Assembly: GCF_027924405.1 (NCBI RefSeq) | Contig: NZ_AP026978.1 | Span: 4,464,001-4,528,000 of the forward strand | Direction of reading: 5' to 3' | From: Nocardia sputorum | GTDB taxonomy: Bacteria; Actinomycetota; Actinomycetes; Mycobacteriales; Mycobacteriaceae | Length of the DNA: 64,000 nucleotides | Part shown: in pieces, positions 7,230 to 17,754 of the stretch | Layout: each line of letters begins with the position of its first letter | How positions within the stretch are numbered: the stretch's first letter is position 1 | Notes under the pieces: generated by a model | The model's database searches: none | What the model saw: only the letters and a program-made list of their open reading frames with translations | What the model was told of the DNA's origin: nothing | Translations under genes and position numbers: made by a program

Positions 7230-8447
7230 TCAGCCGATGCGCTGTCCGTTGACACGAGCCAGGCCCGCGATGCCCTTCGGCGTCGGTATCGAGCCGAACC
7301 AGACCTCCTTGCGGACATCGAAGGAGGTCTTGAAGCCGCCGCCGTCGATCGTGTGGGTGGCCGATGTGATGCGGTAGAGCCCGCTGAACTGCTCGCCGAG
7401 GCCCTTTAGATCGATGACCCGGCCGGCCTTGATCTCCAGGTTGCCCACCGCGCTCCCGCTGCCGGTCAGGCGATTGTTCAGCCGCGGCAGTAGCTCGCTC
7501 AGCAGCGTCTTGGGCATGGCCGCGGCACCGACGGCGTCGATCTTGACCAGCTCGCGCGCCGCAGCCGGGCCCACGATGTCCTCGATGCCCTCGAACCCGG
7601 GGAAGATCTGCAGGTCGAAGGCGGCGCGGTCGAAATCCCAGCCGAGGACCACGACGAGTTCGGTCTTGATGCTGGGGACCCAGATGCGTGTCTGCACGCC
7701 GAGCACCTGGCCCACCGTGCTCAGCCGAGGGGTGAACTCGGCGAGGGAGGCTCCCCAGGTGAGGCTCACACTCGGTGCGAGGTCTCCGAGCAGGAATTGG
7801 AATCGCAGGACGAAACCCCGGGGCTCGGCGGTGTGGTCGATGTGCATTTCCCACCCGTTCTCCTTCGCGATCCCGGTCAGGAAGTCGAAGTCGCTCTGTG
7901 AGCCTTGTAGGCGGACGCCCTTCTTCGCCTCATCCGGATCGATCGCGTAGGCCATCAGCAGGGCAAAGAACGACAGCGCCGCGCCCACCGGGTCGTTGTG
8001 TGGGATGAGCAGATTGCCGGCGGCGACGAGGGAGGTCACCGCGGGGTCGGGCAACGGGAAGTGCCCGATCGTCGGGATGTCGATCAGGAACCCGCGGTCC
8101 TTGGTCCCGGTGGTCAGTCGCTGCAGGAAGTCGTGCGCGACCACCGTCAGGGTGGGCATCCCGCCGCCGGGAAATGCGGCGGAGATGCCGGTGATCTCGC
8201 CGACGAAGACGCGTTCGAGCGGGTCGGGCGCGTAGCCGAGCGACAGGGCGAACGGCTGGTCGACTTGCAGGAGCGGGTGGTCGAGCCAGCGCAGTCCTTC
8301 GTTGGCGAGGGTGATCTCGACGCGGTCCGCGCCTTCGATCCCGTCGGTGTGGCTGATTCGCGAGATCGACCCCCGTAAGGCGGGCGGGATGGCTTCGCCA
8401 TCGATTTCGATCGCGAACTCCGGCGCGTAGGACGGGTAGCGGGCCAT
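7230..8447 (-). CDS. phage late control D-like hub protein
   Basis: 405 residues of the gpD/gp27 hub family: EFAIEIDGEAIPPALRGSIS, a WLDHPLLQVDQPFALSLGYA segment and VFVGEITGIS near the N-terminus, then TLTVVAHDFLQRL. The second half has SDFDFLTGIAKENGWEMHID and YRITSATHTIDGGGFKTSFD. It forms the trimeric-to-hexameric adaptor between tube and spike. Its ATG at 8447 overlaps the stop of the LysM gene (TGATG). The gp5-like spike gene follows after about 30 bases. Confidence 0.9.
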   Translation of the reverse strand: MARYPSYAPEFAIEIDGEAIPPALRGSISRISHTDGIEGADRVEITLANEGLRWLDHPLLQVDQPFALSLGYAPDPLERVFVGEITGISAAFPGGGMPTLTVVAHDFLQRLTTGTKDRGFLIDIPTIGHFPLPDPAVTSLVAAGNLLIPHNDPVGAALSFFALLMAYAIDPDEAKKGVRLQGSQSDFDFLTGIAKENGWEMHIDHTAEPRGFVLRFQFLLGDLAPSVSLTWGASLAEFTPRLSTVGQVLGVQTRIWVPSIKTELVVVLGWDFDRAAFDLQIFPGFEGIEDIVGPAAARELVKIDAVGAAAMPKTLLSELLPRLNNRLTGSGSAVGNLEIKAGRVIDLKGLGEQFSGLYRITSATHTIDGGGFKTSFDVRKEVWFGSIPTPKGIAGLARVNGQRIG

Positions 8448-9109
8448 CAGCGCACGACCTCACCGGAGTCAGGGTCGTGGAAAGGCAGCGACGGAATCCG
8501 CAGCGGTTGTCCGGTGTGGATCTCTCGTGGATCGGCGAGCGCGTTGGCCAGCGCGATCGGCCGCCAGACGCGTGGGTCCTGGTAGTGCTCGGTGGCGATC
8601 CGAGTGAGTGTCTCGCCTTGGCGCACGATGTGGATCTTGGTGAAGTCCGCCGTCTGCCGGTCCACCTCCTTGGCCTCCCGCTCGGCGTCGATGAAGCGGT
8701 TGAACGTCACCGACACCCTTGCCCGGACGGGTCGGCCGTCGTCGGCGAACATCTGGAACTTCTGATTCGCCTTGGCCAGCACGCATCGGAAGTCCAGCGA
8801 CCCCCACTGCACGCGCAGTACTGGCGGCGCATGCAGTTCCTTATCGATCTCCAGTAGACCGACAACCTTGCCGGTCAGCTCGCGGACGTCCCGTTTCTCG
8901 ACGTCGTCGGTGTCCCAGGTGTCGAAGAACAGCTCCATCTCCAGGGTCTGCATGTTGCCGTTGACGAACTGCAGAATGGGGCCCGACAGCCCGGGGATCG
9001 CCTGGGAGGCGAACATGTTGTCCTGGTTGAGCGTGTACTCCTCCGGGTTGAACGGTAAAAGGAATTCCTGCCCGGTGTGCTCGACCGTAACTTTCAGCTT
9101 CTCCACCAC
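8447..9109 (-). CDS. LysM-containing baseplate hub/tube-initiator protein (Afp7-like)
   Basis: 220 residues. The first ~150 match the CIS tube-initiator type (FNPEEYTLNQDNMF, LEMELFFDTWDT, VLRVQWGSLDFRCVLA, RARVSVTFNRFIDA). The C-terminus is one LysM motif (IHIVRQGETLTRIATEHYQD and PREIHTGQPLRIPSLP). This domain pair is characteristic of eCIS and T4 gp53-type baseplate proteins. The start is GTG at 9109, or GTG at 9106, downstream of AAAGG. It is coupled by overlap to the gpD-like gene. Confidence 0.88.
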   Translation of the reverse strand: MVEKLKVTVEHTGQEFLLPFNPEEYTLNQDNMFASQAIPGLSGPILQFVNGNMQTLEMELFFDTWDTDDVEKRDVRELTGKVVGLLEIDKELHAPPVLRVQWGSLDFRCVLAKANQKFQMFADDGRPVRARVSVTFNRFIDAEREAKEVDRQTADFTKIHIVRQGETLTRIATEHYQDPRVWRPIALANALADPREIHTGQPLRIPSLPFHDPDSGEVVR

Positions 9110-9130
9110 GCACCTTTCCCTTCACCGTTC

Positions 9131-9895
9131 TCAGAACGCTCGGCCGAACCGCTCGCGGTGGGCGGTGAGGCGGTCGTCGAGCCGGGTCACGATCTGCTCG
9201 GTTAAGCCATCGAGGTCAACTGGCGGTGGGAGCGCCGGGCTCGGGCTCGATGCGACGGGCCCGAAACCCGGAATACCGACACCCCGGCGAGCGACATCCC
9301 TCGACGCCCGATCGACCTCGACGCCGACTGCCGGGCGATTCCGAGGAAGGGCGGTGGGGCGAACTGGAGACTCGATGCGTCGGTGCCCGTAGGCCACTCG
9401 CATGATCATCTTGCGGCATACCGCGGGCAAACGAGCCTCGGCGCGGTCGGACGCCGCCACCGCGACCGCGGGCGGCCGGGTCGCAGGAAGGAGTTTGGGA
9501 GTGGCGCGAGTCTGGGGATCCCAGCGCTCGTAGCCAAATGCACGCGCCCGCATCGGCTCCGACGACGGACGCCCCAGTCCCACGCCGGGCACCGCCGTAT
9601 CGTGACGGTATGCGAGCACCGATCGCGTTGTGCTGCGCTGCTCGATCACTACATGCGAGCCGTGCCCGGCCGGTGGCCGGGGCATGACTGTTCGCGCGCG
9701 GACGGTCAGGTGCAGGTGAGCGGTGAAGCTGAACTGCTGTCGAGTGCGCGATTGCTCGGCTCGGACGACAGGGCGACGTAGCAACGTCATCTGAGATGGC
9801 CGGTGCACCCGCCCGTGGCGTCTCGCGCGCCGGGTTTTGGTGTGCGCCCATGCTGTCCAGCGCTTGAGGTTGGGGCCGCTTGCGAGTTCGCTCAC
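9131..9895 (-). CDS. hypothetical eCIS operon protein
   Basis: 254 residues from a GTG at 9895 that overlaps the stop of the preceding DUF6760-like frame (GTGA). It is rich in Arg and Pro and has no domain I recognise. The C-terminus DLDGLTEQIVTRLDDRLTAH followed by RERFGRAF resembles the short amphipathic tail seen at the end of several eCIS and phage-tail hypothetical proteins. Its place between the small tube-linked proteins and the LysM hub suggests a structural or assembly role. Function is not established. Confidence 0.65.
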   Translation of the reverse strand: MSELASGPNLKRWTAWAHTKTRRARRHGRVHRPSQMTLLRRPVVRAEQSRTRQQFSFTAHLHLTVRARTVMPRPPAGHGSHVVIEQRSTTRSVLAYRHDTAVPGVGLGRPSSEPMRARAFGYERWDPQTRATPKLLPATRPPAVAVAASDRAEARLPAVCRKMIMRVAYGHRRIESPVRPTALPRNRPAVGVEVDRASRDVARRGVGIPGFGPVASSPSPALPPPVDLDGLTEQIVTRLDDRLTAHRERFGRAF

Positions 9896-10059
9896 CTCGG
9901 GATCCCTTCGTTGCAACGCTCGTTGATGGCGGAAATCTCGGCGACCCATCGGCGTCGGTCGGCGTGCTCCATCCGCATGACCGAATCCGGTGGCCAATGG
10001 AAGTGATAAGCGAGGAAGGCTACCTCCTCGTAGAGCGAGGCGAGGGGGTAGCCTACGAT
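9892..10059 (-). CDS. DUF6760-like small eCIS frame, probably reached by -1 frameshift
   Basis: 55 codons reading YPLASLYEEVAFLAYHFHWP, then MRMEHADRRRWVAEISAINE, closely resembling the small DUF6760 proteins found after the tube gene in eCIS and some phages. The in-frame stretch back to the previous stop contains no ATG, GTG or TTG before the conserved part. It is therefore probably expressed by -1 frameshifting from the upstream gene at GGGGGGA (10059-10065), or less likely from a rare ATC/ATT start. The end overlaps the next gene by GTGA. Confidence 0.7.
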   Translation of the reverse strand: MVGYPLASLYEEVAFLAYHFHWPPDSVMRMEHADRRRWVAEISAINERCNEGIPR

Positions 10060-10065
10060 CCCCCC
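10017..10065 (-). promoter_or_regulatory. candidate -1 programmed ribosomal frameshift signal
   Basis: On the minus strand a slippery heptamer G GGG GGA (10065-10059, codon boundaries in the X XXY YYZ register) is followed after 4 bases by an inverted repeat AGGCTACC...GGTAGCCT (10054-10047 with 10024-10017). The stem is extended by four more pairs after one mismatch, with a 12-base loop. The zero-frame stop TAG lies at the base of the stem. A -1 slip would fuse the 125-residue zinc-ribbon protein to the DUF6760-like frame. Confidence 0.72.
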
Positions 10066-10430
10066 TCGCCGTTCACCGCCGCGTTCGTTGCCGCTGCGAA
10101 TGTGTGCTCACACCGCGGGCACGACACCTTTCCGTTCGTCTTTTCCGGTTGATTGACGGTGTTGTAGAGCTCTTGCAGATACGCCAGATCGGCGGCGTAC
10201 AGGCTCTCGATCACCTTCGGGTTCACCTGCCCGAGGGTGCCGAGGGCGGTGACCACACGGGCGAGGATGATCACGATCAGGTACGCCTCGTTCTGCTGCA
10301 CTCGATGGTCTCGCAGCGGTTGGATTTCGTCGGCCGCGGTGGCCAGCCGCATCATCCCCTCGCGGTGCAGTGTGCCGTCCTCGTCGACATAGCCCAGCGG
10401 CAGCGTGAAGGGGTACTCGGTTTGGAACAC
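10053..10430 (-). CDS. small eCIS tail-assembly-chaperone-like protein with zinc ribbon
   Basis: 125 residues starting at GTG 10430, 2 bases after the tube gene stop, with GAGAGG upstream. It begins FQTEYPFTLPLGYVDEDGTL and REGMMRLATAADEIQPLRDH, a common pattern in proteins just downstream of contractile tube genes. It ends with a CPRCEH zinc-ribbon half and a Gly-rich tail. By position and likely frameshift it parallels the gpG/gpGT tail assembly chaperones of phages. That functional parallel is an inference. The frame stops at TAG 10055-10053 unless shifted. Confidence 0.8.
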   Translation of the reverse strand: MFQTEYPFTLPLGYVDEDGTLHREGMMRLATAADEIQPLRDHRVQQNEAYLIVIILARVVTALGTLGQVNPKVIESLYAADLAYLQELYNTVNQPEKTNGKVSCPRCEHTFAAATNAAVNGEGGS

Positions 10431-10432
10431 GG

Positions 10433-10867
10433 CTAGGCCCTCTCGATTCGCTCGTGTGCGATCTCGAGCGTTTCGATCGCGACGTCGGTGCCCTTGGCGC
10501 TGAAGTCCGCGCCGTCCCATTTGGTGGGCCATCCCTCGAAGAAGTTCCAGCGGGCGACCTCGGTGCCGTCCAGGTCGTTGAGGATGATGCTGCCGTTTCG
10601 GCGTGACACCTTCCCCTTCGTGACGTCCCTGAACCATTCGTACAGTTCCCGGGAATCGGTCAGCCCCCATTTCAGGGTGATGTTCGGGTACTTTGTCGGG
10701 CCGGGCAGTTTGCGGTTGGTGGTGTTGTCGCCGCCCTCCCGGTACTCGATGGGGTCAGCGCTGGCGCCGAACCCTGAGCAGTCGGTGAAGCCCGCTTGAG
10801 TGATTCCGTCGATCTCGACCAGGAAGTTGAAGTTGCGATACGGGTCGACCCGTACTCCGTTTGCCAT
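10433..10867 (-). CDS. contractile injection system inner tube protein (gp19-like)
   Basis: 144 residues, the usual size for eCIS tube subunits. Visible family features are VDPYRNFNFLVEIDGITQAG, FTDCSGFGASADPIEYREGG, KLPGPTKYPNITLKWGLTDS and WNFFEGWPTKWDGADFSAKG. Hexamers of this protein stack to form the inner tube that carries cargo. A GGAGG lies 8 bases before the ATG at 10867. It directly follows the sheath gene, the standard sheath-tube order. Confidence 0.95.
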   Translation of the reverse strand: MANGVRVDPYRNFNFLVEIDGITQAGFTDCSGFGASADPIEYREGGDNTTNRKLPGPTKYPNITLKWGLTDSRELYEWFRDVTKGKVSRRNGSIILNDLDGTEVARWNFFEGWPTKWDGADFSAKGTDVAIETLEIAHERIERA

Positions 10868-10879
10868 GGGTGCCGCCTC

Positions 10880-12037
10880 CTACGCGGGGATCTCGTTGAC
10901 CTGAGCGATACGGAACATCACGAACTCGGCCGGCTTCACCGGCGCCACCCAGACTTCGGTGACCACCTGTCCGCGGGCGCGCACATCGGGAGGGTTGGTG
11001 GTCTCGTCGCAGATGACGCGGAACGCCTCCTCGGGGACGGTCCCGAAGAGGGCTCCGTCGCGCCACACCCCGGTGAGGAAACCGTTGACGCTGCGGGTGA
11101 TCCGTTGCCAGAGCGGTTCGCTGTTGGGTTCGAAGACCGCGAATTGGGTGCCCTGGTCGATCGACTCGCGCAGGAAGTTCATCAACCGGCGGATGTTCAC
11201 GTACTTGATGCCGCCCGCCGCCTCGTTCAGGTCGCCGCCCATCGTGCGCGCACCCCAGATCCGGATGGTGCCGTTGAGCAGACGGATCGCATTGATTCCT
11301 TCCGGGTTCAACCCGTCCTGTTCGGCGGTGGAGAGCCGGTAGGTCAGGCCCAGTGCCCCGTTGACCTGTTCGTTCGCCGGGGCCTTGTGCACGCCGCGCT
11401 CACCGTCCACCCGGGCATAGATACCGGCAACCAAACCGCTCGGCGGGATGGAAACCGTGCCACCGGACACGGGGTCCGACACCTCGATCCACGGAAAGTA
11501 GATGGCCGCGAAGTCGCTGATTTTTACAGCTCCCTTGATCGCGTCCACGGTGATCGTTTTTGTGTCGTTGCCATCCAGAACAGCAACCCGGTCCTTGAGT
11601 TTCTCGCAATGGTCCACAAGCTTGCCGCGAACGGCGTCGTTCAGGGCGCCAGGTGCCGCGACGATGGCGATCTCGTCGATCGCCGCCATCCTCGTCAGCA
11701 CGGCATCCACCTCGGTGGCGTCGTCCAAGTTGCTGACCCTGGCCACCCAGCAGCGACTGCCACCGTTGTTGAAAAAGCCGTACACCGAGTGCGCGAGGTT
11801 CAGGTTGCCGGCGTCGAAGTCGCCGAACTGACGCTTGAACTGCTCCCAGTTGGTCACCGGGAACGGCACGCCCTGAGCGACGAGGGTGTAAGGCTTGCCG
11901 TCCGGGCCAACGGGCATTTCGTTTTCGGCGACGGTCGATACGCCGATGAACGCGGCCGTGCTGGTGCCCACACCGGCGATCGAAGGTGTAAGGGGTGTCT
12001 CGCGGACGTAGACGCCGGGGGAAAGCGGAACAGTCAT
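10880..12037 (-). CDS. contractile tail sheath protein
   Basis: 385 residues, compact compared with phage sheaths but normal for single-sheath actinobacterial eCIS. The N-terminus LSPGVYVRETPLTPSIAGVG and TAAFIGVS are the sheath arm. The middle has GDFDAGNLNLAHSVYGFFNN and GGSRCWVARV. The C-terminal core has IRIWGARTMG, YVNIRRLMNFLRESIDQGTQ, FEPNSEPLWQRITRSVNGFL and the final strand VTEVWVAPVKPAEFVMFRIA. AAGGAG precedes the ATG at 12037. Only one sheath gene is visible. Confidence 0.96.
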   Translation of the reverse strand: MTVPLSPGVYVRETPLTPSIAGVGTSTAAFIGVSTVAENEMPVGPDGKPYTLVAQGVPFPVTNWEQFKRQFGDFDAGNLNLAHSVYGFFNNGGSRCWVARVSNLDDATEVDAVLTRMAAIDEIAIVAAPGALNDAVRGKLVDHCEKLKDRVAVLDGNDTKTITVDAIKGAVKISDFAAIYFPWIEVSDPVSGGTVSIPPSGLVAGIYARVDGERGVHKAPANEQVNGALGLTYRLSTAEQDGLNPEGINAIRLLNGTIRIWGARTMGGDLNEAAGGIKYVNIRRLMNFLRESIDQGTQFAVFEPNSEPLWQRITRSVNGFLTGVWRDGALFGTVPEEAFRVICDETTNPPDVRARGQVVTEVWVAPVKPAEFVMFRIAQVNEIPA

Positions 12038-12091: not shown

Positions 12092-12928
12092 CTATGGCGG
12101 GAACGTGATGTCGTAGCCGTCGGGCGCGGTGGCTGGGACGGTGATCACCTCGTCCCGCGGAACATGGCCTGTCGCCGTCGCGCGCAGGATGTGCTCGCCG
12201 GCAACCAGACCCGAGAGCCGGAAACGGCCGTCGGCGTCGGTGGTGGCCGCCCGTCCTCCGGTGACCGTGACGACAGCACCGGCGACGGTCCCGGCGGGGT
12301 CGCGGACGACACCGCCGATCGCGAACATCGGCTCGCCCGGGGTGGCTGGGTCCAGGTCGTCGTCCAGATCGATCTCGCTGGTGATCACCTGCGGTCCCTC
12401 CGCGGCAGTCACCTCGAGATCCATCGCAATCGTCACCACGAGCCGGAACGAGGTGCGCGGGGAGATGCCGAGCGCGGTCCAGAACTCGTCGAGGTTCATC
12501 CCGTCGCCGGACTGCGCCACCCACATCGGGACCGGAAACGGTTGGCCGACAAGGGAGTTCTGCAGGTAGATCGGCGGGATCGTCGGAAAGCGGCTCAGCT
12601 TGCGCAAAGCGTTGGCGAGGATCAGCTGTTCCTCGGCGACCGCGGCGTCGTCGGTCTTCTTCGACCATGCCGTGACGAGATAGTCGCAATCGACCCGCAG
12701 AGGCGGTGTGCGCCTGACATACGATCCGCCAACGAGATCCAGGATTGGCTCAGGGTCACGCAGCATCCGGTTCTCGCGGACACCGTAGAGGAACACATCC
12801 AGCGTCGTCACCGACGGGGCGAACGCCTTGTCCGGGGTCTTGAAAGTCACCTCGACACCCGCGAGCGAGGGTGGCGCGGTCGCGTCGTCGAGAATCTTGC
12901 GCAGCGTCAGGCCGAGATCGTCGAACAT
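12092..12928 (-). CDS. DUF4255 tail-terminator/cap protein with carboxypeptidase-regulatory-like tail
   Basis: 278 residues from the ATG at 12928, overlapping the AAA gene stop (TGATG). Residues about 1-190 are DUF4255 (Afp16-type cap): MFDDLGLTLRKILDDA, TLDVFLYGVRENRMLRD, RVDCDYLVTAWS and FPTIPPIYLQNSLVGQPFPV. Residues about 205-278 (GGVVRDPAGTVAGAVVTVTG, DADGRFRLSGLVAGEHIL) form a carboxypeptidase regulatory-like beta-sandwich. This extra domain would project from the capped end of the particle. It may be a contact module, but that is inference. Confidence 0.88.
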   Translation of the reverse strand: MFDDLGLTLRKILDDATAPPSLAGVEVTFKTPDKAFAPSVTTLDVFLYGVRENRMLRDPEPILDLVGGSYVRRTPPLRVDCDYLVTAWSKKTDDAAVAEEQLILANALRKLSRFPTIPPIYLQNSLVGQPFPVPMWVAQSGDGMNLDEFWTALGISPRTSFRLVVTIAMDLEVTAAEGPQVITSEIDLDDDLDPATPGEPMFAIGGVVRDPAGTVAGAVVTVTGGRAATTDADGRFRLSGLVAGEHILRATATGHVPRDEVITVPATAPDGYDITFPP

Positions 12929-15039
12929 CAGCCCTCCCGACCGAGTATGTCGGCGTAGGCGCCCGCATCGCTGTCGGAGAGCACCCGGCCGATCTTCTGG
13001 TGCTCGCGCCGCGCCGCGCGCATGACGTGTCCCATGTCGATCCGCCCGCTGTTGGCCGAGGCGAGGTACGCCGCAGACACCACGATGTTCTTGATGTTGC
13101 CGCCGGGCAGGCGAAACTGGCGGGCGAGGAAGGGGTAGTCGATGGCGTCGTCCACTGGAGCCTGAGCGGGAATGAAGCGGCGCCACATCCGTTCTCGGTC
13201 CGCCTCGTCGGGTACCGGGAAATCGATGACGAACTGCAGCCGCCGTAAGAACGCTGCATCGAGGTTCTCGCGCAGGTTGGTCGCGAGAATCGCGATGCCG
13301 TCGTATTCCTCTATCTTCTGCAACAGGTAGGCGATCTCCACATTGGCGTAGCGATCGTGGGCATCGCGCACTTCCGAGCGCTTGCCGAAGATCGCGTCCG
13401 CCTCGTCGAAGAACAGCACCGCGTCAGCGGTCGTGGCCGCGTCGAATATTCGTTTGAGGTTCCGCTCGGTTTCACCGATGTACTTGCTGACGACCGTGGC
13501 GAGATCGATCACGTAGAGATCGAGCCCGAGCTCACCCGCCACGACGTCCGCGGCCATCGTCTTGCCCGTGCCCGACGGCCCCGCGAACAGCGCGCAGATC
13601 CCGCGCCCGGAGGCCAGAAGCCGATGGAACCCCCAGTCGTCGAGGACGCGGCGACGGTGCGCTACCCGGCTCGCCACCTCGCCCAATTGCGCCTTCGTGT
13701 CGGCGGGCAAGACGAGGTCATCCCAGCCGTACACATGGTCGATCTTGCGGGTCAGCGTCCCGAGTTCGCGGCCGGATCGCGCGCGAGCGGCCGCGAACAG
13801 ATCGTCAGACGCCGGGAGCGCACCCATCCACGCGCCGCGGTGCACCGCGCTTGCGACGACCTCCCGGATGTGCGCATCCGTCAGCCGAAAACGACTGGCA
13901 AGCGCCTGAACAGCCCACTCATCGACAGCCATCCCCGCGGCCTCGACAGTCGCCCTCCAGCACCGCGCGCGGCTGGGCGCCGACGGCACCGGAAAAGGCA
14001 CGGCCACGACACCAGCGGCCAGCTCCCCACGAGTTGACGCCGGAATCCACACCTCCTCACCCGACAGCACCGTGAGCACGCGCGAGCACGCGACCTCTTT
14101 GGTGAGCGCGGCACGCAGTCGGCCCGCAGCTGCGGCAGGCACCGCGTCGACACCGCCGAGAAAGATCCCAGTTCCCCGAAACCACGCCTCACGAAACGCG
14201 ATCCGGAGGAGTTCCTCGACCGGTCGCTCTTCACCGGATGCCCGCTCGAGATCCACGACCAACAGCCGCCGACCGGCCTCGGCAGCCAGCGCCTCAGCCG
14301 CAGCCAGCTGGCCGACCCCGCCCGGGCCGCAAAAGAACAGCCGTGGCGGAGGGTCGCCACCAGTCCGCATCACGTCCGCGGTCGGCAGCGCATCCAGAGT
14401 GCAATCGTCCAGTGGGAGCTCCGCGCGAGGCCGCCCGGGCTCACCGAGAAACGCACGGCCCACGAGCCGTGGGTCCAGGGTGGACTCCGACAGCAGCAGA
14501 CGCAGCACCTGCCCGTCCACCAGCATCTCCTGCGCCAGCAACGGCTGCTGCGGCCGCGCCGGATCGACGACAAGATGCAGCAGACCGTGGTGCACCAGCG
14601 GCGCGTCGGGCGCCACCCTGGCCCTGGCCGCTATCCGCTCTGCAGCATCGGCACACAGCAGGTGCAACGCAAGATCGACTGAGGCGCGGCGCCGGCTGAC
14701 GTCATCCTGAAGATAGCCGAACAGCCGCTCGTACCGAAGATCGATCTCCGGTGCGGCCGCGATCAGCAGAAGATCAAGATCGAACGCCGTGAGATCGAAC
14801 GCATTCGCAAGCCACTCACACACCTCGCTATGGGCATCGGTCACAATCGCGCCACCGGACAACACCGGTTGCCCGGGGCTCCGGCGCAGCAACCGGGCGA
14901 CCTCCTCAGGCCGGATCACCAGACCGCGATACGGATCAGCCGCCGCATCCGACCCGAACACCTCGGCTGCCGCGTCCACGGCACGCGTCAGCAGTGCGTC
15001 GAGTCGCCGCAGCGACTCGACCAGCCCGGACACCGTCAC
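12928..15039 (-). CDS. eCIS AAA+ ATPase (Afp15-like)
   Basis: 703 residues. The C-terminal AAA+ module has Walker A GPSGTGKTMAAD (near residue 490), VSKYIGETERNLKRIFDAA, Walker B AVLFFDEADAIFG and an arginine-finger/sensor region AILATNLRENLDAAFLRRL. An N-terminal degenerate module has FCGPGGVGQLAAAEALAAE, in which the Walker A lysine is replaced. Membrane-free AAA+ proteins of this kind are near-universal in eCIS clusters and probably act in assembly or cargo loading. It is the first gene of the leftward operon. The start is GTG 15039 or GTG 15033, with only a weak ribosome site. Confidence 0.93.
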   Translation of the reverse strand: MTVSGLVESLRRLDALLTRAVDAAAEVFGSDAAADPYRGLVIRPEEVARLLRRSPGQPVLSGGAIVTDAHSEVCEWLANAFDLTAFDLDLLLIAAAPEIDLRYERLFGYLQDDVSRRRASVDLALHLLCADAAERIAARARVAPDAPLVHHGLLHLVVDPARPQQPLLAQEMLVDGQVLRLLLSESTLDPRLVGRAFLGEPGRPRAELPLDDCTLDALPTADVMRTGGDPPPRLFFCGPGGVGQLAAAEALAAEAGRRLLVVDLERASGEERPVEELLRIAFREAWFRGTGIFLGGVDAVPAAAAGRLRAALTKEVACSRVLTVLSGEEVWIPASTRGELAAGVVAVPFPVPSAPSRARCWRATVEAAGMAVDEWAVQALASRFRLTDAHIREVVASAVHRGAWMGALPASDDLFAAARARSGRELGTLTRKIDHVYGWDDLVLPADTKAQLGEVASRVAHRRRVLDDWGFHRLLASGRGICALFAGPSGTGKTMAADVVAGELGLDLYVIDLATVVSKYIGETERNLKRIFDAATTADAVLFFDEADAIFGKRSEVRDAHDRYANVEIAYLLQKIEEYDGIAILATNLRENLDAAFLRRLQFVIDFPVPDEADRERMWRRFIPAQAPVDDAIDYPFLARQFRLPGGNIKNIVVSAAYLASANSGRIDMGHVMRAARREHQKIGRVLSDSDAGAYADILGREG

Positions 15040-15867: not shown

Positions 15868-17754
15868 ATGCACGCCCTCGTGCAGAGACCGAAGTCAACT
15901 CAGCAGGCCGTGTCGGTCCAGCCTCCAAGTCTCGCTCGAGGATGCCCTGAACTTGGCCGCGACTTGAACTGGCTCCATCACTTGCATCACAACATGGGGA
16001 ATCAAGCGGTCCAACGAATATTGCAAGCGCAGACCGAAGAACCTAATGCCGGATTGACCAGTACCGCAGCACCTCGATTTGGAAATGATTCAAATTGTAT
16101 CGCCACAGGCCTTCGAACCGCGTATCCTCCGCTGCAAACGAAGCTCAAGGTCAATGCGCCCGGGGATAAATACGAGCAGGAGGCAGACCGCATCTCTGAG
16201 AAGTTGATGCGGATGGAGGTTCCCGACCGTACACATGCGACGCCGCCGGCAATTCAGCGGGCCACCACCGGATTCCGGGAGGAACCTGCAGCGACGTATC
16301 TCCAACGCCTTTGTACCGACTACGAGGAGGAGGCGCTCGAGCGGAAGGTTGTGTCAAAGTATGCGACTGTGGGTGGGGTTCAGACATTGACTCGAGCCGA
16401 AGCCAATGTGAAAGCCGTCAGCGGTGGGTACCCGCTGACCCGCGAGCAACGGGAATTCTTTGAGCCGCGCTTCGGTGTCGACCTCAGCCGCGTGCGAATC
16501 CACACCGATTGGTCGGCGGATTCCGCAGCGCGCTCAGTGGGCGCACTAGCCTTCACGCAAAGCAGCGATATCTACTTCCGAAATGACCAATACTCCCCCG
16601 ATTCCTTTTCGGGGCGAAAACTGCTAGCACACGAGTTGACTCATGTCATACAGCAGGGAGCTGTACCAGAAATTGGGAATCCATCGTCTAATGGGGATAG
16701 CATCCAGCAGCGATCCACCGACCCCTCGACGGTCGACCGACAACCCAACGACGAATCCGCGTCAGTCGAATCCGGCGCGTGCTGCGCCTCGTGTGCGAGC
16801 GGCCGCCTCTGTGAGGACGACCAGCGGACCGGATTGAAGCGTCCTTCTTCGATCGGCACTACACATGGGGGCGTCCTTCAGCGAGCCTGCGGCCCGGCCG
16901 GTATCGGCTCGCCGTCCGGCTGCATAGGATCATCAGAATCGTGGCGAGACGACGCCGTGCCGTATCGGTTCGATGCAGGCTGCGATTCGTTCAGACCGGG
17001 TGAACGGGCTCGGCTCGCCGCAGAAGGCGTAGCCGCCGTACAAGCCGGGCGTGTGCTCGCGGTTGATGGATACGCGAGCACCGAAGGCGAATCTTGGTTC
17101 AACGTAGACCTCTCCTGCGCGCGTGCTCTGCAGGCCGCGTCCGTTCTCGCTAATGCCGGGGCGAGGGTCGCTGGCGTGTATTCGCATGGGCCTGTCACTG
17201 GCGACGCGTATCTGCGGCGGTCGGTCGTGGTCCGATCGACGTCCGATCAGCGCAGGAATCCCCTGCAACTAACCGGGAAACAACTGGCTTCGCCGCAGTT
17301 CCCGCAGGTCTGTAGGCCCGCAACCGGAATCGGCAATACCGACTGCGGTACCTACGCGATGGAGAACTGGTGGCTGCCACAGGCCTACGTACATAACGCG
17401 ACGTGTGCCTGCCAGGAGACTCCGAACGATCCGAAAGCGAACTGCATAAGGAAATTCCTGCAAGACCGGGTGAGCCGGGTCAATCGAGAGAAAAAGGTTG
17501 AGGCCGCGCACTGGCTCGGGGCGTTGATGACTGGCCATGTGAGCAAAGGCGCCTACATCAACTATGTCCAACTCAATCTGACACCGATGATTTACCAGGA
17601 CCACGTCGATGCGTACGGGACATGCTGCTGTCCTGCTGGCCCCGCCCCACTGGCGGCGTGGCGCGGCGTGACTACCATCCCACTGCCTTGCTCGCTCGTC
17701 GGATGGTCGATCCGGCAATACGGATCCTGCCACGCTACGCCGGGAAAATGGTGA
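15868..17754 (+). CDS. DUF4157 (HELTH) protein with OmpA-like segment, likely eCIS-linked cargo
   Basis: 628 residues from the ATG at 15868 (CGGAG six bases upstream). Near residue 45 is HHNMGNQAVQRILQA, the short GNQAVQRL-type motif common in eCIS-associated proteins. Residues about 185-270 are DUF4157: GYPLTREQREFFEPRFGVDL, VRIHTD, and a zinc-protease-like LLAHELTHVIQQ. Residues about 370-450 resemble an OmpA-like fold (VDGYASTEGESWFNVDLSCA and RALQAASVLANAGARVAGVY). The Cys-rich C-terminus (CACQETP, GTCCCPAGPAP, PGKW at the end) is conserved-looking but unassigned. No signal peptide is seen, fitting loading into the particle. Cargo status is inferred from the motif and proximity. Confidence 0.85.
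   Translation: MHALVQRPKSTQQAVSVQPPSLARGCPELGRDLNWLHHLHHNMGNQAVQRILQAQTEEPNAGLTSTAAPRFGNDSNCIATGLRTAYPPLQTKLKVNAPGDKYEQEADRISEKLMRMEVPDRTHATPPAIQRATTGFREEPAATYLQRLCTDYEEEALERKVVSKYATVGGVQTLTRAEANVKAVSGGYPLTREQREFFEPRFGVDLSRVRIHTDWSADSAARSVGALAFTQSSDIYFRNDQYSPDSFSGRKLLAHELTHVIQQGAVPEIGNPSSNGDSIQQRSTDPSTVDRQPNDESASVESGACCASCASGRLCEDDQRTGLKRPSSIGTTHGGVLQRACGPAGIGSPSGCIGSSESWRDDAVPYRFDAGCDSFRPGERARLAAEGVAAVQAGRVLAVDGYASTEGESWFNVDLSCARALQAASVLANAGARVAGVYSHGPVTGDAYLRRSVVVRSTSDQRRNPLQLTGKQLASPQFPQVCRPATGIGNTDCGTYAMENWWLPQAYVHNATCACQETPNDPKANCIRKFLQDRVSRVNREKKVEAAHWLGALMTGHVSKGAYINYVQLNLTPMIYQDHVDAYGTCCCPAGPAPLAAWRGVTTIPLPCSLVGWSIRQYGSCHATPGKW

Follow-up and report, generated by a model that had tools for sequence, protein, structure and literature searches.

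A phage-tail-like injection machine of Nocardia sputorum, with relatives in several phyla, appears to produce an assembly protein in two forms through -1 slippage of some ribosomes, as phage tails do

The production of two versions of one assembly protein from a single gene region is a trick known from phage tails. It is described for gpG and gpGT of lambda (PMC5009743; this and the other papers are cited from extracts of their text) and it is found in P2, where the genes follow one another in the order sheath, tube, E and E+E', the last of these with an annotated -1 frameshift. The slip site of P2, as read from its record, is a T-run followed by a G. In actinophages, GGGGGAA is a recognised slip motif of tail chaperone genes, providing the sole letters of one motif in the phage set that was studied, and it was noted that G:U pairing would allow the second tRNA to re-pair (PMC10885494). 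A value of 6–7% was measured for a phage chaperone cluster (PMC3711429). The strongest counter-evidence to a frameshift at such a G-run, and thus to the reading developed below, comes from E. coli: G_GG.G_GG.U without a stimulator gave 0.018%, the lowest value reported. When the IS3 pseudoknot was present, all motifs but three passed the authors' threshold, and G_GG.G_GG.U is not among these three (PMC4066793). As for eCIS, the phage-tail-like injection machines to which the present locus belongs, neither programmed frameshifting nor a tail assembly chaperone is described in the extracts, located by word search, of the openly accessible literature covered here (PMC8894135, PMC8894136, PMC10066040, PMC10020575, PMC12237407, PMC12998442, PMC11566945, PMC12210884, PMC13222765, PMC8528098 and PMC8718954), and no title in the literature listings points to either.

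The window, i.e. the whole 64-kb stretch of N. sputorum DNA that was analysed (contig NZ_AP026978.1), carries an eCIS cluster on its minus strand. The gene order is AAA ATPase, Pvc16_N, sheath, tube, chaperone/DUF6760 pair, CIS_tube/LysM, base-plate V, PAAR, gp25 and baseplate J; the chaperone gene is thus placed after sheath and tube, in the same order as in P2. The features on which the argument turns are the following.

12928..15039, minus strand: AAA ATPase typical of eCIS (PF00004, E 7.3e-30)
12092..12940, minus strand: Pvc16_N gene, between ATPase and sheath (PF14065, E 4.1e-23)
10880..12037, minus strand: sheath gene, upstream of the tube (PF04984, E 1.4e-18, and PF17482)
10433..10867, minus strand: tube protein gene (T4 gp19-like), directly upstream of the chaperone gene (PF06841, E 6.9e-48)
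10053..10430, minus strand: zinc-ribbon, tail-assembly-chaperone-like protein of 125 aa in the zero frame, GTG start (10430), TAG stop (10055–10053); open reading frame, PHROG 508 tail assembly chaperone, E 1.3e-7
10059..10065, minus strand: slippery heptamer G GGG GGA in zero-frame register, as read from the letters
10047..10054, minus strand: 5' arm of the predicted stem, AGGCTACC, 4 nt after the heptamer
10026..10045, minus strand: predicted inner stem, CCTCG (10045–10041) with CGAGG (10030–10026)
10017..10024, minus strand: 3' arm of the predicted stem, GGTAGCCT, pairs counted on relatives
9892..10059, minus strand: DUF6760 segment in the -1 frame, read after the slip, stop TGA (9894–9892), predicted fusion of 179 aa (PF20546, 8.3e-17)
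8447..9109, minus strand: next recognised eCIS gene, CIS_tube domain and LysM (PF19266, E 9e-36; PF01476, E 6e-6)

The chaperone reading frame ends in GAG GGG GGA TCG TAG, and the heptamer GGGGGGA is of the classic X XXY YYZ type as well. Its two downstream arms pair over 8 bp and enclose 22 nt that contain the inner stem; a 69-nt segment folds at -30.8 kcal/mol versus a shuffle mean of -21.7 (z = -3.18), with 1 of 200 shuffles as good. A preliminary description, made from the letters of the window, had reported a 125-residue zinc-ribbon frame ending at an in-register G GGG GGA, and both coordinates and letters were right. It had also reported a stem of 8 plus 4 pairs after 4 bases: the spacer and the 8 bp stand, the predicted fold is 8 plus 5, and the claim was thus right in substance. 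The -1 frame, which was said to be DUF6760-like and devoid of ATG, GTG or TTG of its own, does match PF20546. It is open from 10107 to the TGA and has no standard start ahead of the conserved domain, the first ones, two ATGs (9978 and 9972), lying within it; the rare-start candidates upstream are ATT at 10101 and ATC at 10059. A covariance model of the element, the training of which included the window site, returned one site at E ≤ 10 in the 7.43-Mb genome, that of the window (E 5.5e-16; 150 of the 1041 first-look candidates were scored).

We consider it very probable that -1 frameshifting yields, in addition to a short chaperone, a DUF6760-extended form of the eCIS tail assembly chaperone. 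Computation shows the element and its conservation, the lack of start codons and the likeness to phage chaperones; slippage, its rate and the division of labour between the two forms are what we infer, as follows. The gene after the tube would be the tail assembly chaperone of this eCIS. The majority of ribosomes would terminate at the TAG just past the G-run, yielding the zinc-ribbon form of 125 aa, while a minority, with help from the stem-loop 4 nt downstream, would shift back by one base on G GGG GGA and yield the 179-aa form ending in DUF6760. By analogy with gpG/gpGT of lambda and gpE/gpE+E' of P2, binding of the tape measure would fall to the short form, and delivery of tube subunits to it would be the task of the long form.

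Relatives were gathered as 107 DUF6760 matches, corresponding, once 16 duplicates are removed, to 91 distinct loci, 88 of which were anchored on a protein motif (L021, L038 and L064 are unanchored, L017 and L062 have no zinc-ribbon match, and L024, L039 and L109 were dropped from L001–L109 for having no DUF6760 match with the small profile). In the genome samples used, centre genomes included, DUF6760 is present in 2 of 201 genomes for the window's family, 23 of 396 for its phylum, 24 of 244 for Cyanobacteria, 16 of 201 for Chloroflexota, 1 of 199 for Acidobacteriota and 3 of 229 for a gammaproteobacterial class, the names of the last four groups being taken from record titles. A Rhodococcus plasmid has the same arrangement, with 72 of 87 junction bases identical to the window. 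Gain or loss of one base in a G homopolymer would produce the same picture in one genome, so that a sequencing error or a broken gene has to be considered; since the arrangement recurs in the Rhodococcus plasmid and in dozens of independent assemblies, and since conserved families are encoded in both frames, this explanation is hardly credible. Apart from the plasmid (80% identity), the closest chaperones found to the Rhodococcus-like one of the window are those of L025–L028, from Acidobacteria and Chloroflexota assemblies, at 69–70% identity, which suggests that the cluster moved horizontally.

The run GGGGG occurs in the register NNG GGG GNN in 77 of the 88 anchored loci, as GGGGGAA (30 loci), GGGGGAG (29), GGGGGGG (13) or GGGGGGA (5). 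A homopolymer of 5–7 G at every such site could also invite RNA polymerase slippage, part of the transcripts then having an extra G, and the resulting fusion would look identical at the protein level. Runs of five G are short for slippage of RNA polymerase. With only five G in 59 of the 77 loci, and with a conserved downstream stem at ribosomal spacing that such a mechanism does not need, we regard polymerase slippage as very improbable. That the arrangement would be a shared trait had been proposed in the preliminary description, and it proved so: G-run, stem and missing start are kept together in relatives from Actinobacteriota, Acidobacteriota, Chloroflexota, Cyanobacteria and Proteobacteria. 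Conservation within actinobacterial eCIS, the comparison it had recommended, is partial. The G-run is present in 11 of 20 anchored Actinobacteriota loci, but only one of those 11 lacks the start, so that absence of the start codon does not characterise the actinobacteria. The case that was to speak against frameshifting, a good start without heptamer, is confined to a minority: 9 of the 11 anchored loci without G-run have a start within 27 nt of the domain.

Start codons are the point at which translational reinitiation competes with frameshifting. On that explanation, the G-run serves as a Shine-Dalgarno sequence for DUF6760 as a protein in its own right, begun at GTG or ATG in certain clades and at rare codons (ATC, ATA, CTG or GTA) in others. 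Among the 77 G-run loci, 50 have no ATG, GTG or TTG in the 27 nt that precede the Tyr codon of the domain, and 35 have none anywhere in that frame. The interval from heptamer to Tyr codon contains a standard start in 27 loci, which include most of clade B (see below) and which were counted against frameshifting; 26 have only CTG, ATA, ATC or ATT there, as reinitiation at a rare codon would have it, and 24 have no near-cognate codon at all, which such reinitiation does not accommodate. Reinitiation also draws support from GTG or ATG codons overlapping the chaperone stop in 17 of 21 clade B loci, from public annotation that begins DUF6760 at CTG (L042) or ATA (L043), and from the E. coli study, which names a Shine-Dalgarno artefact, G_GG.G being able to act in this way for an AUA in the -1 frame (PMC4066793). 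The zero-frame stop lies at most 6 nt past the heptamer in 68 of the 77 loci and 15–36 nt past it in the other 9, 4 of them with the stop inside the 3' arm; in these 9 a stop-start overlap at the G-run is impossible because of this distance. Moreover, a start site is not expected to have a stem inside the coding sequence. Altogether, reinitiation appears unlikely. A narrower version, which gave the G-run no role other than that of Shine-Dalgarno sequence for an overlap of GTGA type and supposed that the GTG had disappeared from the window, was dropped for the window's clade, where relatives without any start share the stem.

The pattern recurs in loci added later from viral contigs and eight further plasmid records. 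Of 27 such loci, 14 were new, distinct and anchored (9 were duplicates, 2 had no DUF6760, and L157 and L158, both with GGGGGAA, were unanchored). The G-run is present in 13 of the 14: 9 of these have no start and all 9 have the stem, 2 have start and stem, and 2 have a start and no stem. In the single locus that lacks the G-run, a GTG lies 24 nt upstream and the stem is absent.

Codon usage and covariation both argue that the stem is under selection as RNA and that it is kept by codon choice together with some paired changes. Among 55 loci that combine a G-run with a YP motif, 51 use TAC for Tyr, 46 use CCC for Pro and 50 use GTA or ATA at the Val/Ile position; GTA and ATA are used at that position by none of the 8 YP loci without G-run (Fisher 3e-7, for loci that are not independent). 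As background, across the same genes in set A3, the usage is TAC for 94 of 216 Tyr, CCC for 63 of 289 Pro and GTA for 59 of 455 Val (13%). A first codon test was partly circular, because its group A had been picked by stem letters (with L040 added by hand), and the counts of 55 versus 8 loci come from the test redone with the protein anchor. Three of the four TAT codons in the YP set go with ATA (L029, L062 and L080), turning a C-G pair into U-A; the fourth locus, L041, has no such stem. In alignment A3, 90.3% of the cells pair and 3 pairs are doubly changed, but covariation alone is weak, since its score is reached by 20 of 500 shuffles and is slightly exceeded after a +1 slide (0.110 versus 0.096), although only 51% of the cells pair in that position. 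Loci that have an insertion of one codon, together with some others, are absent from alignments A3 (45 rows) and A2 (20 rows). A different stem occupies the same place in the Streptomyces-type clade (B), with 92.1% of the cells paired, 4 doubly changed pairs, and a covariation score reached by none of 500 shuffles and by no slide. For nine junctions folded singly, z ranged from -1.78 to -4.08. A loose pairing test, chosen after the stems had been seen, finds a stem in 72 of the 77 G-run loci (A in 51, B in 21) and neither stem in 5, while 4 of the 11 loci without G-run (L009, L018, L023 and L065) pass the same test; these 5 and these 4 were counted against frameshifting. All p-values overstate, because the loci are related. 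The preliminary description is confirmed in what it observed and supported in its interpretation as frameshifting, for which the comparison of relatives makes a strong case.

Three clades can be distinguished. Clade A, with members in Acidobacteria, Chloroflexota, Cyanobacteria, Methylococcales and Paraburkholderia besides the window itself, has the heptamer, stem A and usually no start. Clade B, Streptomyces-type with some Chloroflexota, has the heptamer, stem B and mostly a GTG or ATG overlapping the stop, with CTG in a few; it may use both routes, frameshift and start codon. Clade C has no heptamer and an overlap of ATGA/GTGA type, which recalls a paper on T4-like phage chaperones made without frameshifting that is cited in PMC13222765. 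It includes a Haloferax plasmid (L045, 1986–2782), an archaeal copy in which distinct chaperone and DUF6760 genes overlap by ATGA and the G-run is absent. An in-frame fusion was seen in 1 of the 91 distinct loci, L064 from a Chloroflexales assembly, where one ORF following a tube-like ORF (as judged by eye) joins T4_baseplate (9.1e-16) and DUF6760 (6.5e-7) in a single frame. Since its front part matches PHROG 150 (baseplate hub) but gives no match to PHROG 508, this is a related architecture rather than the same chaperone. A broader proposal, which we put forward tentatively and with some doubt, is that one step in the assembly of bacterial contractile injection systems is set by recoding: the G-run would be a slip site, and in some clades also a Shine-Dalgarno sequence, yielding the chaperone and its DUF6760 extension, and lineages would have switched among four states, namely frameshifting alone, frameshifting with a start codon, plain overlap and gene fusion, with selection keeping the dose of DUF6760, not the frameshift itself.

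The likeness to phage chaperones, claimed in the preliminary description on the basis of position, holds. PHROG 508 is matched by all 51 chaperone members scanned (E ≤ 0.01), and PF10109 (Phage_TAC_7, the title of which names E) gives weak matches in 6 of the 51. DUF6760 resembles the E' part of P2, PF06528 being matched by 17 of 63 members (E ≤ 0.1) and hhalign giving a probability of 67.6; the DUF6760 of the window scores 18.1 bits against the P2 GpE family, for which the curated cut-off is 23. Comparison of the zinc-ribbon profile (A4) with P2 gpE by hhalign gave no match. The eCIS differ from P2 in their slip site, a G-run instead of a T-run, and, in the window, in the next recognised gene, which is of LysM tube-initiator type and not a tape measure. 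With gpG/gpGT of lambda and HK97-type chaperones the structural score is modest, and the window differs from these by the zinc ribbon at the protein end and by belonging to a bacterial machine. Likeness to the tail chaperones of actinophages is by motif letters: GGGGGAA (PMC10885494) is found in 30 of the 77 eCIS loci, whereas the window has GGGGGGA. Within eCIS, the spike plug Cis6/Alg6/Afp6/Pvc6 is small, is needed for assembly in Algoriphagus and is numbered between the tube-like and LysM genes (PMC8894135, PMC8894136), and DUF6760 may or may not correspond to it; a PDB sequence search with DUF6760 had no plug chain among the 22 matches listed at E ≤ 1. In Streptomyces, the product of sco4251, of unknown function, was present in at least one of three particle preparations (PMC10020575), and the sheath gene is sco4253 (PMC10066040); gene order beside the sheath would make sco4251 the chaperone.

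If the frameshift reading is true, a role would be assigned to two functionally uncharacterised genes that many eCIS clusters carry, and eCIS would gain the assembly chaperone that phage tails need. It would also explain odd or missing DUF6760 start codons in annotation, where the use of an internal TTG (3384 in L040), of CTG (2360 in L042) or of ATA (2363 in L043) hides the missing start. Cloning kits that assemble eCIS gene by gene could lose the fusion unnoticed. The locus would further provide a clean test case, accessible through synonymous stem mutants, of how a phage recoding signal survives once the machine has been domesticated.

A few minor observations may be added. The element model, scanned over the 244 cyanobacterial genomes, matched in 25, namely the 24 with DUF6760 and a weak one (G600), most of the matched sites having been in the training set. 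One cyanobacterial genome, G587, has four DUF6760 places (L031, L050, L060, L063, L066), each matched by the model, and two of the four have identical junctions. L086 and L156 have an odd relative frame, the junction of L086 looking normal. In the window, no recognised gene lies in the interval of roughly 780 bases that separates DUF6760 from the LysM gene (9110–9891); a hypothetical protein is annotated in the same interval of the Rhodococcus WB1 plasmid (L040, 4094–4351). Beside the cluster, a divergent 628-aa protein encoded on the plus strand (15868–17754) has an eCIS_core domain (PF13699, 6.8e-29) and is, by this domain, a candidate cargo.
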